DNA from: Scatophagus argus
Lineage: Eukaryota; Chordata; Actinopteri; Scatophagidae
Length of the DNA: 64,000 nt
Reading direction: 5' to 3'
Assembly (NCBI RefSeq): GCF_020382885.2
Contig: NC_058499.1
Coordinates: forward strand, 10,215,872-10,279,871
The translations under genes were made by a program, and so were the position numbers. Shown here in pieces: positions 18,587 to 60,779 of the stretch. Below the pieces are notes generated by a model that had not been told where the DNA came from, did not search any database, and was given only the letters and a program-made list of their open reading frames with translations. Within the stretch, counting starts at the first letter, position 1. Each line of letters starts with the position of its first letter.

Positions 18587-20427
18587 TTACTTCTTCCTCA
18601 TCTGTGCTTGTTTTAGTTTAGTACACCCTGTCTTGGTTTTGGTCCCTGATTCTTCCAGAGAAGCCAGCTTCTTCTTGAGTTTTGCATCCACAGCAGGACC
18701 TCTCCTGTCGCTGCCGGAGCGCTGCTGACTCCTCCGCTGGCCTCTTAAACCGCCCACTGAGGTGGAGGTTTCCTGTTTGTGGCGACTGCTGATCAGTGAC
18801 TCGTTTCTATCCCAGACGAGCACCGTCACACCTGTGAGTGAGCATGAAGCAACTTCATTGACCTGCGACAGCCATCTGACCTCATCATCATCACAGCCAT
18901 CAGACAACAACATGTCGGTGATTAATGTGCTTCTGGGGAACTCACCCATTCCAGATCCAATCACATCACCCATTGGATTGAATTTGTTGATCTGTAAATA
19001 AATGTTTTTAAGTGTTAATAACTACAGTTTTTGTGCCTTAGTGGTTTTTAAAAAACATACTCACAGATTTGATCCCTGAAGCAGTGGAGTCCTGCAGCTC
19101 ACAAACGAGCTCTGCTGTGTTGGAATCAAAGACGTCGATGGTTCTCTGGTCTCCGGGGCAAACCCGGTCGTCAGGGTAGCGGCCCACCACAATAAGGTCA
19201 TAGACAGGGTGCCATGTGGCCTGTAGAGAAATAGTAACGGTGTTCGGTTGTCACAGACTGAACCAGCATTAATGACGAGTTCCTTCCTCCGCAGTACATC
19301 TCTTCAAATGCAAAAATGATGATTTTAATGTTGATCATGTGTAACAATTTGCTCCCCAGGCTGCTTGATGCTGCCCACTGCTCCTGTGTGTGTTTCACTG
19401 CATGTAATTTGCCGGGTGTTGCATGTGTTTTCAACTAAGGATGGGATAAATGCAGAAGACAAATTCGGTGTGTGTATGTAAAAATATATATACTGTCAAT
19501 AAAGATTCTTCTTCTTCTTCTTCAATGTCTGTGATTTGATCATATGTGCAGTTCAACTATGTTAATTTGTTAATTTGTTAATTTCTAAACAAGTTACAGA
19601 AGAATAAAATAAAATAAAATAGGATAAAAAAAGGATAAAAATAAACAGAAACAAACCTTGATGGGTGTGAGATGCTGAAACTGCCTGTGCGGATGTTGGA
19701 TGATGTGTTGAGGCTTCGACCAATCGGAGGACGAGTAGACTCGGATCTGATCGTACTGATCTGTGGTGAGCAACTTGGAGCAGTCCAGTGGGTTGAAATA
19801 CGCTGTGACAATGAGGAACAAATTAAGAAAACTGAACACACTTGGACTAAATGGACAAAGGAATCACTTCCATCTTATACCAGCAATGACGCATTTAACG
19901 ATGTTGAGGTGCCTTCAAAATCAGCACAAGTCGCACTTAATGAATCTTTTACTGTTACATCACTTATATCGCACGAATGTCACAATGTTTGCAAACTGCA
20001 GAATTTTCTACATTAAAAAAAAAAACACAGCAGCATAGCAGCAACAGAAAATTAATTTTAAGTAAGAAAGTGTTATGTGAGAGTGTTACCCGAGTTGACA
20101 GCTCTCTCGTGAGGCAGCTCATGGAGGAAGCTCTTCTTGTCTTTGATGCTTCTCAGGTCCCAAAGTTTCACCGTGTGGTCAACTGAGGCCGTGGCCAACA
20201 GCCAATCACAACGGGAGTTGAATTCAGCATGGGTCACTTTGGCTTTGTGCAACTTGTCACTGAAAATCTATGACATTAAAAACAAATCCATTCACAATCA
20301 AAATTCACACCTTTTAAATTCACCTCACTGTTTGCTTGTTTGAGAAATGCTCATTCTTTTTAATCGTGAAAACCATTACAGAATCAGAATAACTCAGCTC
20401 TCCGTGCTAGCTTGCATCCTTAGGGGA

Positions 20428-20464
<37 letters not shown>

Positions 20465-22597
20465 TTTGTCCATCCAAACCGAGGAGCAGGACCTGTCCCA
20501 CATTGTCTCCTGTCACAAGCATCTGTCGGCTTACAGACACGTCTACACAGCAGTACCAGTAACTGTAAGACAACACAGAAATTTACTGGATAAAACACAT
20601 GAAATATTGAAAGAGTTTAATTCCAATGTAACAATAAATAAGTGATTGAATAGAGAAAATCTATCATAAATTATCATTTTTTTCTACCCAAATTTTTCTG
20701 ATGATTTTAAAATTTTCACGTGAACTGAATATTGTTATGTTTATGGCCTTTAAAAACACATTGAATCATCTAGGAAGGTTTTTTTTCCCTTAATTCGTAT
20801 ATGTAACTCCAGAGTTAAACTTTAGCTTTTAACATCAACCAGATCGCAGCATCTTTTTGCTGAGCATCAGTCTTCTTTGCAGTTTTCTCACCAAACGTTG
20901 TGGTTCTCGTGGCCACAGTCTTGAGTTCGGGACAGAACAGTGGGTGTTCGACCCTCAAAGCTCTGCAGGGTCAGTGTGCCCTCACCAGAAGCCACATAGA
21001 CTTGGGAAAAGTCCATTGGGCAAAACTTCATCCCTCCAATAAAGTCTCCTGCTCCGTTCTGTGCACAGAAACACAAACGCAGGCCTATCAGCCTATCGCA
21101 GCGCTCGTATCAGCAACACGCTGCCACACAAATGTGGAGCATTAAAGCACTGAGGGCCACCTGGTAAGAAGACTGATGCCAGACTGATCAGGCCTGAAGT
21201 CTACAACCCTTTTCGACTTTAGCTTACAGAAAACAGGGGAACTTAGCCTTACTTCAGTGTGTCTGTGCTGGCAAACACTGTTAGTGTTGTCCCACTGAAA
21301 TCTCGAAGTGCTGTTGTGCCCCCAATAGATGAGGTGAACAGCTGAGTGGGATTTAACTGGTTAAACTTCATGTCTGTAACTGAGTCTCCAGCTCCCATCT
21401 AAGCAGAAAACCAACAACAGTGTCAACAAATGAAATCAAGGAAACTTAGTCTGCAACATTTTGAAATTAATTACAGCCCCTAAATGTAAAGTGTTGCCTA
21501 ATTTCAAAATGAAAATAAAAACAAAACAAAAAACAGACAGACTGCTGGTAAACACCTCATACTTTTGATCATCCAAACATCTGGCGAAACAAACCAGACC
21601 ACCATGCAGGAACTCACCCCTTGAATAAAATTCTTCTTTGCTGGCACCTCAAAGTCCCACAGGTATAAGTCGCCACCCTTGGACCCCACAGCCAGAGTGG
21701 TGGGATGAGTGGGATGCCACTCCAGACTGGTGATCCTGCGGTCGAAGGGGCTGGTGGCACCGTGGAAATGATAGGAGGACAGAGAGCGAACAAAAGGCTC
21801 CTGAAGACACTGGAGGAGACAACAGAACTAACTGCTCACTGACTTCAGGTGGAATCAACATGTACGACATGCAGAGGCGCAGTATACACTCAATGCATCG
21901 CCTGACGGACAACAAATGGCAACCTGATCTGATCTGTGGGAGCCTTTTGACTCCGATCCAACGACAACAGATTGCATATTTCAGCTGCACAAAGATAAAC
22001 TTGAGTTTTCATGAGAGCTTAAGTGTTAATGTTGCGAGTGGGGCGGCAACAGAAACAAATATACATGGTGATATTTCTTACTCATTAGTCTGCAAATTAC
22101 ATTTAAGACAAACTTAAGTTTGACCTGGGCGGCATGGTGGTGCAGTGGTTAGCACTGTTGCCTTAAAGCAAGAGGGTCCCAGGTTCTAATCCCGGTCTGG
22201 GTCCCTGTGCCTGTGTGGGTTTTCTCCGGATACTCCGGCTTCCTCCTGGTCTCTCTGTGCAGCCTATGAGTGAAGGCCAGCGGTCTCACCTGTCTCATCT
22301 GTGTGTGAAGACTTTGGCCCAGAGTGCTCTTGTAAATGTAGTGCAGGATGCTGCCGTACCCACTTTTCTTCTGGACTCCTCCAGACTGGAGTGGAGGCCC
22401 TGCAACACCCAAATCAAATCAACTGTCATGACAAGTACGTTTCATGTACTGAAGCTGTTCGGTCGGGGCTGCGCACCTTGTTGGGATGTTTCTGCATCTT
22501 TTTTGGCTCGTAGTTTCTTGGAGAGAGTTGGAGCTGAGCCTTTCCTCGCTTTACCATTTGGTTCAGATGCGTCTGAATTCGTCGGTTTCCTTTTCAT
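18587..22597 (-). CDS. ddb2: DDB2 (XPE), WD40 UV-damage sensor of the CUL4-DDB1 ligase
   Basis: Minus-strand exons: 22477-22597, 22290-22399, 21618-21809, then 21253-21398 or 20892-21058, then 20463-20562, 20090-20267, 19657-19802, 19065-19220, 18946-18991 and 18587-18831. The product is 479 or 486 residues depending on the alternative exon. DDB2 recognises UV photoproducts in chromatin and recruits DDB1-CUL4. Visible: a basic N-terminus (MKRKPTNS), an H-box-like helix ([16 protein letters not shown]), seven-blade WD40 core, the DDB1-contact WDxR motif WDLR at 259-262, and the lesion-inserting FQH hairpin ([11 protein letters not shown]) at 324-326 (numbering with the 146-bp exon). The C-terminus extends about 65 mostly basic residues past the human end (ILIWSQEEARTRK equivalent VLVWDRNE). 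A 5' UTR junction precedes the ATG (acceptor at 22615; donor of exon 1 at 22708). Head-to-head with kif23. Confidence 0.96.
19371..19521 (+). repeat. Fish interspersed repeat 3' tail ending in AATAAAGA(TTC)n, ddb2 intron
   Basis: Begins CTGCCCACTGCTCCTGTGTG and runs through TGCCGGGTGTTGCATGTG to AATAAAGATTCTTCTTCTTC. A second copy is at 59378-59645. The (TTC)n end is typical of retroposon 3' tails. The family is not named with certainty. Confidence 0.6.
20431..20462. repeat. ddb2: (AC/GT)n microsatellite abutting a ddb2 5' splice site
   Basis: Sixteen AC units on the + strand, so on the ddb2 strand the intron begins directly with (GT)16 after exon end CAAAAG at 20463. Confidence 0.97.
20892..21058 (-). 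other. ddb2: ddb2 alternative exon, second diverged version of the same WD40 segment
   Basis: Acceptor tttctgtgcacag and donor GTTTG/gtgaga bound 167 bases, again phase 0 in and 2 bases over. The peptide starts [20 protein letters not shown] and ends CGHENHNVC after joining. It shares the GAGD..MKF...GT..L..F.G frame with the 146-base exon but is 7 residues longer. Inclusion of both exons would shift the frame of everything downstream. Confidence 0.85.
21253..21398 (-). other. ddb2: ddb2 alternative exon, tetrapod-like version of a WD40 segment
   Basis: Acceptor ttttctgcttag and donor CTGAA/gtaagg bound 146 bases. It enters in phase 0 and leaves 2 bases over. The peptide starts [20 protein letters not shown] and ends VFASTDTLN after joining, matching the human segment (GAGGSITGLKFN...FASSDTIN) almost position by position. 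It is homologous to the next exon at 20892-21058. Confidence 0.85.
22126..22260 (+). mobile_element. tRNA-derived SINE head fragment in ddb2 intron 2
   Basis: Contains a pol III A-box-like TGGTGCAGTGG (22137-22147) and a B-box-like GGTTCTAATCC (22182-22192) at tRNA spacing, followed by GGGTTTTCTCCGGATACTCCGGCTTCCTCC, a phrase common to an abundant teleost SINE. The 3' body is missing, so it is truncated. It ends close to the ddb2 exon donor at 22290. Confidence 0.7.
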
Positions 22598-22615
22598 GTC
22601 TCTCCCCCGCTCTAC

Positions 22616-23399
22616 CTAAAAGAGACGAGGCTTGTGCATTACAACACGGGTGATTTGACTCCACAGACAGTCAGGCTGCATCAATAAAGTTAATACAAAC
22701 TGCTTACCTGTGGTTTTCAGTGTGCAGCGCTGCAGTTTCAGAGCAGGAACTCCAGTGTTTGCATAACGCAGCAGTACAACGTGAGTGGGTATGTTAATGG
22801 CTGCAAATGTGCTTGTTTTATAACGTGTGCGTTACAGGTGGCGGACGGTAGGTGTCAGTGTTCTGCCAACGACTCTCACTGGACGCCATATTTGGCGTTT
22901 AGGCAGGACTACAAACTGATGTCCGATCAGCTTTCAACAGATGAGCTTTATTTTGGAAAACACCCTTAGTTTATAGAGGTCAGATTGATGCTTTAACACA
23001 TAATAATGTGGTTAATTAAATAATTAAAATGGAGTGTAAACAAAAAAAAGCTTTATAATTGTCTTTTAACTGGTATGACTACTAATTACTTACTACTACT
23101 AATATATAAATATATATATATATATATTGGATATATTTAAAGCGATACGATCCTCGTTTTTTGTTCTTTCTCCCCATCTATTTTAATGAGCACGCGTGCT
23201 TTTAACCGTATAAAAATCAAAGTTTTCATTATTATTCTTATTATGTTTTGCATTTTGTAGTTTTACAAACGCATCGAAAAGGAAGACGGAAACACGTGGT
23301 CGGTTGTTGTGAAATCTGATTGGCTGATGCTGACTCATTTTGCGGAGGGAAAGTTCAAAATTGTAGTATCAGAAACGGTCACTGACGTTAGAAGAAGCA
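22616..23399. promoter_or_regulatory. Shared divergent promoter region of ddb2 and kif23
   Basis: ddb2 exon 1 (non-coding) has its donor at 22708 on the minus strand. kif23 starts at 23400 on the plus strand. Near kif23 there is an E-box CACGTG at 23293-23298, an inverted CCAAT box (ATTGG, 23319-23323) and TTCAAA at 23354-23359, which is the cell-cycle CHR element TTTGAA on the other strand. CCAAT followed by CHR about 30 bases later is the arrangement of DREAM/MuvB-controlled G2/M genes, which KIF23 is. A TA-rich tract occupies 23102-23127. Confidence 0.6.
23102..23127. repeat. (AT)n tract between ddb2 and kif23
   Basis: Mostly alternating AT over 26 bases in the divergent intergenic region. 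It may be a length-variable spacer between the two promoters. Confidence 0.85.
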
Positions 23400-31663
<8,264 letters not shown>

Positions 31664-59645: not shown

Positions 59646-60779
59646 CTTAATTTAAATATTTTTACAGGACTGAAGAGGTAAAGTTATATAATATTCCGTA
59701 AGAAATAATATATTAAAGAAATGTCAATTTCAATTTGATTAAAGTGCCAAAATAAGACTAAAGAAAGACTATAACCAAGTCTGTAGGAATAAAATCACAA
59801 TGGTTTCTATTTTTTGTGACTGTCAACAATACTGTAAGGTAAAATAAAAACAAGGGGGCAATGTCTATGGTTCTGATGCACTTGCATGAGCAAGGAAACA
59901 ACATCCCAGTGAAATTAATATCACAGACAAAACAACCAAGTATAGCTGATCGTGCCTTTAATCAAATTCATCCAATAATTGTGGCTTGTTTCACACCAGA
60001 CATAAACCTCTCTGAATTATTGCAGTGTCACATTGTCCACCCATCTGATAATGACACCACATACTGGCCTAATGATATCATAAACACAGCAGTTTAATGT
60101 GATTATTAATACCAGAAGAACATCTTATTAATTAAATACTAATGAAGTCTGACAGAGATGCTCCTGGGCTGGACAGTGGGACATTATTACTACTGCCTTT
60201 TCACATTTCAAGCTAGTAAACACAAGCTAATATAATATAGTAAACCCCCCACCTCTCTTGCAGTTGATATTTTCATCTTTTCTGCATGATCAGCCATGTA
60301 AGGTAGGCTGACGCAGAGGATTTTTGTTTTGTTTTTCTGTCTTCCTCACAGGTTAGGACAAAGTCAGCTCAATTTTCTGTCTAATTTTTGGTACCCAGGA
60401 GATGAGCTTGAGCAGGTACATATTTATATTTAGATATTTACCATTGATTTATGAGAACCCATGCAAAAGTAATTAAGATACTATTTTTATTCACAAACTG
60501 CTGATGGAAGGTATAGATATTGTACAGAGTCTCTGTAATTTTAATTAGCATACAAACAGAACAGGAATGGTGGTAATACCTTCCCACTTGTGGCAGCAAC
60601 AAAATGTCTATATCAGGAAATGATTGCACACTTATAACGTTGTGCTCTCTCTTGCATAGATATAATAAAATCTAAATATTCCCACTGCTGCCATTACATT
60701 GATAAAGAGTGCTGCAGCTTAACACATTTTTACTGGTCAGTGTCTTATTTTCTACTGCAGGGGGAGGGGAGGAAGTGAG

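Follow-up and report, generated by a model that had tools for sequence, protein, structure and literature searches.

The ddb2 gene of the fish Scatophagus argus carries two homologous, phase-matched versions of one coding exon, here called A and B, the second of which shows signs of protein constraint; the layout of the gene gives good support to such a pair, which could sensibly be used only one exon at a time. We somewhat favour the view that these are tandemly duplicated, diverged and mutually exclusive exons for a single stretch of the DDB2 propeller, and that a protein built with exon B would have altered lesion sensing. The analysis centred on a 64-kb window (the whole stretch of DNA that was analysed), which is part of the 570.7-Mb genome that was searched. 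The features of the gene within this window are as follows:

18587..22597, minus strand: ddb2 coding region from the ATG (at 22597) to the stop (ending at 18587), with ten coding exons per isoform
21618..21809, minus strand: constant upstream exon, which ends in FIQG and encodes the residues that align with human R112 and K132
21603..21608, minus strand: TGCATG, whose first letter is base 10 of the intron that precedes exon A
21253..21398, minus strand: exon A, the canonical version, 146 bases, corresponding to human residues 153-201; it begins in phase 0 and ends 2 bases into a codon
21059..21252, minus strand: the 194-nt intron that separates the two exons; its branch-site-like motifs lie 30 and 52 nt before the acceptor
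20892..21058, minus strand: exon B, the diverged homologous version, 167 bases, with the phases of exon A and 7 additional residues immediately preceding human positions 200/201
20463..20562, minus strand: constant downstream exon, which starts with YWYCCVDVS, has the residue aligned to W203 and is followed by a (GT)n donor

Exons A and B are alternatives for the fourth coding exon, and with either of them the coding sequence stays open from the ATG at 22597 to the stop, over 1440 bases in the A form (479 residues) or 1461 bases in the B form (486 residues). The gene encodes a DDB2 orthologue: a 321-residue part of the A form resembles DDB2 along the propeller and has DDB2 as its top match (zebrafish DDB2, 4a08/3ei1, E=2e-163; human DDB2, E=1.5e-128), and the lesion probe F-Q-H, the backbone-contact residues and W203 are as in human in both isoforms. 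DNA and protein searches of the 570.7-Mb genome showed no second ddb2 copy. Only one of the seven genome matches to the DDB2 protein lay outside ddb2, and this weak match (E=0.0098; locus L008, genome G000, contig C15:1486506-1487135) falls in a WD40 open frame of 380 residues that reads like WDR89, a putative name.

The surroundings of the gene were also inspected. Head to head with ddb2, at about 23660-24100 on the plus strand, lie segments that include a 40-residue piece at 23967-24086. By eye, these segments resemble the start of kif23 (MKLP1), a tentative name; the putatively kif23-like 40-residue piece matched no solved structure at E<=0.001. In the region upstream of ddb2 (22598-23440) we found neither TTAYGTAA nor TTTSGCGC, and a single TTAYGCAA is present at 22766 on the minus strand. 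PMC7891740 describes both D-box and E2F sites for every fish ddb2 promoter it examined.

The ancestry of exon B was examined at the protein and DNA levels. Its peptide matched nine PDB sequences up to E=10, eight of them DDB2 at 6.5e-5 to 1.1e-3 (human DDB2 at 6.5e-5) and the ninth a cell-wall surface protein at E=0.82; in its own genome it matched itself and exon A alone (with a cut-off of E<=10, two candidates were scored and both are these). At the DNA level, the A-B stretch matched itself alone. These matches, with exon A as the sole other one in the genome, speak against exon B having been copied from a different WD40 gene. The local alignment of A with B scored 82, against a maximum of 53 in 5,000 shuffles, and when 1,234 open, phase-matched AG..GT segments of 119-191 bases in the window were scanned, only A, B and their sub-segments exceeded 38, a score reached by ddb2's own upstream exon and by an unrelated plus-strand segment at 59891. 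In BLASTP, A and B were identical at 27 of 64 residues, although the E-value is inflated because 9 of these identities come from the shared downstream part. The upstream exon, used as a query for stray fish DNA in prokaryote and viral collections, yielded no confirmed relative among 41 candidate stretches in one search and 44 in the other.

Over positions 2-45, exon A is identical to human DDB2 at 25/44 and to zebrafish DDB2 at 28/44 (23-28/44 for A, human and zebrafish among themselves), whereas exon B is identical to A at 18/44, to human at 19/44 and to zebrafish at 18/44. The first-pass annotation had described the 146-base version as the one resembling human and the 167-base version as diverged with seven inserted residues, and these comparisons bear out both descriptions: a 328-residue part of isoform B aligns throughout to DDB2 structures (500 bits, vs 546 for the 321-residue A part), with one 7-residue insertion relative to zebrafish DDB2. 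Human, zebrafish and A agree at 19 invariant residues, of which exon B keeps 11 and has lost 8. Since B stands at the same distance from A, human and zebrafish, and farther from them than they are from one another, either the duplication would be old, possibly older than the split of fish and tetrapods, or B would be fast-evolving. On the strength of its PDB and genome matches, exon B is a real copy of a DDB2 exon.

We scored splice sites with a simple splice matrix, by sequence alone. Exon A is bordered by the acceptor ..ctgcttag/ATGGGA and the donor ACTGAA/gtaagg, exon B by the acceptor ..ctgtgcacag/AACGGA and the donor CGTTTG/gtgaga. The B sites scored 6.9 (acceptor) and 7.2 (donor), within the ranges of the seven other ddb2 exons scored (acceptors 6.3-11.5, donors 4.7-10.9), and on the minus strand of the window sites scoring at least as high make up 4.9% of all AG and 2.0% of all GT. 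Exon A scored 5.9 and 7.4; its acceptor is the weakest of nine and the B sites are ordinary, so exon A is not obviously favoured.

The frame relations of the pair leave two productive forms. Coordinates, lengths (146 and 167 bases), borders and phases (0 in, 2 bases out) were all as first annotated, and so was the behaviour of the frame: either exon joins in frame to the FIQG and YWYCCVDVS flanks, giving the open proteins of 479 and 486 residues, and joint use shifts the frame of the remainder, with a stop at codon 200 that lies within B read out of frame. Skipping both exons also shifts the frame when the usual splice sites are used. The exon that follows the pair has its donor inside a (GT)n run (20430-20463), and a site shifted by 2 bases, at 20461, would restore the frame of the form with neither exon. 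Adjacent, homologous and internal, with matching phases, usable sites and in-frame joins to common flanks, A and B are organised as a mutually exclusive pair whose joint inclusion would be barred by the frame break and stop.

We next placed the pair on published lesion contacts. In the UV-DDB-nucleosome structure 9J8W, as PMC12606344 describes it, G154, A155, G156, I200, N201 and W203 touch the cyclobutane dimer, and I200/N201 recognise both of its methyl groups; in the complexes with a 6-4 photoproduct or an abasic site, I200/N201 are positioned away from the lesion. Human DDB2 residues 153-201 correspond to the exon pair, with GAG among the first residues, 200/201 as the last and W203 just past the junction. 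Exon B keeps GAG, and W203 is encoded in the next exon, common to both isoforms; at 200/201 B has V/C, with the seven residues inserted directly before, in an alignment where gap placement inside the loop is ambiguous. Eleven other contacts (R112, K132, K244, Q308, R332, F334, Q335, H336, Y356, R370 and I394; Y413, outside the aligned part, was left out of the mapping) fall in shared exons and are identical to human in both isoforms, and none of the mapped backbone or opposite-strand contacts lies within the exon pair. Positions 200/201 already vary among canonical forms (I/N in human, W/D in zebrafish, L/N in the A form of Scatophagus argus), as does position 155 (P in zebrafish DDB2), which means that these positions tolerate change.

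From these published contacts we infer that the exon swap centres on the lesion-contact loop and not on the DNA backbone contacts. The first-pass annotation had left open whether DDB1, histone or lesion contacts would differ; because the published dimer contacts map to the two ends of the exon, it is the lesion part of that suggestion that gains support. Exon B would replace the loop bearing 200/201 with a longer polar loop (13 residues, not shown), and keep the GAG and W203 of the lesion pocket; the remaining mapped DNA contacts would stay in exons common to both isoforms, the mode of DDB1 binding presumably being kept. In classical WD repeats a GH precedes the next strand, and the B loop shows such a GH. 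As a damage sensor, isoform B would thus differ in how it discriminates lesions (dimer vs 6-4 photoproduct or abasic site) or in its affinity, and the published contacts would be consistent with two damage sensors of different lesion preference. We hold only tentatively that the mutually exclusive pair switches the lesion-contact loop so as to provide two UV-DDB sensors with different damage preferences, possibly regulated by tissue, light or stage; one might, for example, be tuned to cyclobutane dimers via 200/201 and the other, with its polar GHENHN loop, to other lesions or contexts.

The N-terminal and other propeller exons are common to both forms and the lesion-contact loop is replaced, an arrangement that would also suit a regulatory or dominant-negative isoform B, one that loads on DDB1-CUL4, binds lesions poorly, and damps repair or redirects ubiquitination. 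Dominant-negative splice variants of human DDB2, reportedly described by Inoki and colleagues, count in the same direction. Nevertheless, the listed contacts GAG, W203, K244 and F-Q-H are all kept and the protein constraint on B suggests more than lost binding, and we consider such an inhibitor unlikely.

The constraint on B was assessed from its divergence from A. By NG86, the pair has a dN of 0.53 and a saturated dS of 2.73, and the resulting dN/dS of about 0.2 suggests an old or fast-evolving, protein-constrained copy, although the ratio of one saturated pair is blind to present-day constraint on B. Under neutral drift to the same DNA divergence, the observed protein score was reached in none of 5,000 runs from A and none of 5,000 from B, and a plain identity of at least 18/44 was attained in 13 of 5,000 runs from A. 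When 0, 10, 20, 25 or 30 synonymous changes preceded the drift, the score was reached in 0, 0, 10, 45 and 181 of 1,500 runs, respectively, such that a neutral B attains it 12% of the time after 30 prior changes. Differences between A and B by codon position (17/17/26 over 42 codons) are weak evidence alone, and GC3 is uninformative (0.53 in B, 0.44 in A, 0.58 in the other exons with A included). Altogether, the protein likeness of A and B exceeds neutral drift in most settings tried. On these comparisons B has likely been under constraint for much of its history, and constraint at present is not proven.

The same figures bear on whether exon B is never used, being an old duplicate whose function was lost recently. 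The loss of 8 of the 19 invariant residues would fit such a fate, as would the 12% of drift runs that reach the score after 30 synonymous changes and the 7% chance, by shuffling, of an open 55-codon frame, which is not negligible. However, the open frame of B, both of its splice borders and its phase are all intact, and the likeness goes beyond drift expectation in the other settings tried; we regard a dead duplicate as quite improbable.

The architecture of the gene, the logic of its frames and the constraint on the second exon at the protein level all speak for the mutually exclusive splicing proposed in the first-pass annotation, which is thereby partly supported and stays a prediction from the gene. 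The spliceosome would pick either A or B, and wrong ddb2 products would be removed via premature-stop decay. Two other means of enforcement gained no support: a steric block, through a short intron or a distal branch point, is at odds with the 194-nt A-B intron, whose branch-site-like motifs sit 30 and 52 nt away from its acceptor, and docking-type pairing of introns failed in all three intron pairs, none of which beat shuffles (93, 63 and 47 of 100 single-base shuffles were at least as strong). With both of these unsupported, frame incongruity, together with decay of the wrong products, is the likely enforcer of exclusion in this gene. PMC7969005 and PMC5740500 present frame incongruity with nonsense-mediated decay as a recognised enforcing route for mutually exclusive exons. 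Separately, within the window sequence, the hexamer upstream of exon A may offer a lead to an RBFOX-type switch, although one hexamer could be chance; we take TGCATG to be an RBFOX-type motif. That exon B is mainly a poison exon, through which the codon-200 stop of the A+B frame lowers ddb2 output by nonsense-mediated decay, would be helped by an A-B intron long enough for splicing and with ordinary sites, but it is very improbable given that a pure poison exon needs no conserved frame and B has a DDB2-like frame in phase with both neighbours.

Tandem-duplicated, mutually exclusive exons are known in vertebrates from alpha-tropomyosin. Similarly, the OGDH 4a/4b pair (PMC7969005) and the U2AF1 3/Ab pair are neighbouring homologous exons used singly and resemble ddb2 A/B in architecture. 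The gene and its function are different, ddb2 encoding a DNA-damage sensor, and whereas OGDH has branch points close to the 5' splice site and a short intron (PMC7969005), ddb2 has a 194-nt intron with branch-site-like motifs near the acceptor. Relative to canonical DDB2 (human 9J8W, zebrafish 3EI1), the A form aligns over the 321 residues tested and has the same mapped contacts outside the exon, whereas the B form is 7 residues longer and differs in sequence at the lesion-contact loop, a place where the solved human and zebrafish sequences are A-like. The human DDB2 splice variants D1-D4 truncate or delete and are not known to swap a homologous exon; splicing changes the DDB2 product in these variants, as proposed for ddb2 A/B.

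Two alternative homologous ddb2 exons are not described among the open-access literature matches listed, as judged from titles and abstract openings. A term search of the main text of the cavefish and zebrafish ddb2 paper (PMC7891740) found neither 'splic' nor 'isoform', and in excerpts of PMC9858704 mutually exclusive exons are named merely as an event class. PMC7891740 reports that in zebrafish and a cavefish both light and UV induce ddb2, and PMC7493909 places DDB2 among the positively selected genes in marine medaka. As an idea, a comparison that mixes A-type and B-type exon models could yield the selection signal of marine medaka DDB2.

In chromatin, DDB2 acts as an early reader of UV damage. 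If true, a natural exon swap centred on its lesion-touching loop would offer a ready-made experiment on how dimers are recognised and lesions chosen, and it would mean that, in fish, alternative splicing tunes damage recognition itself.
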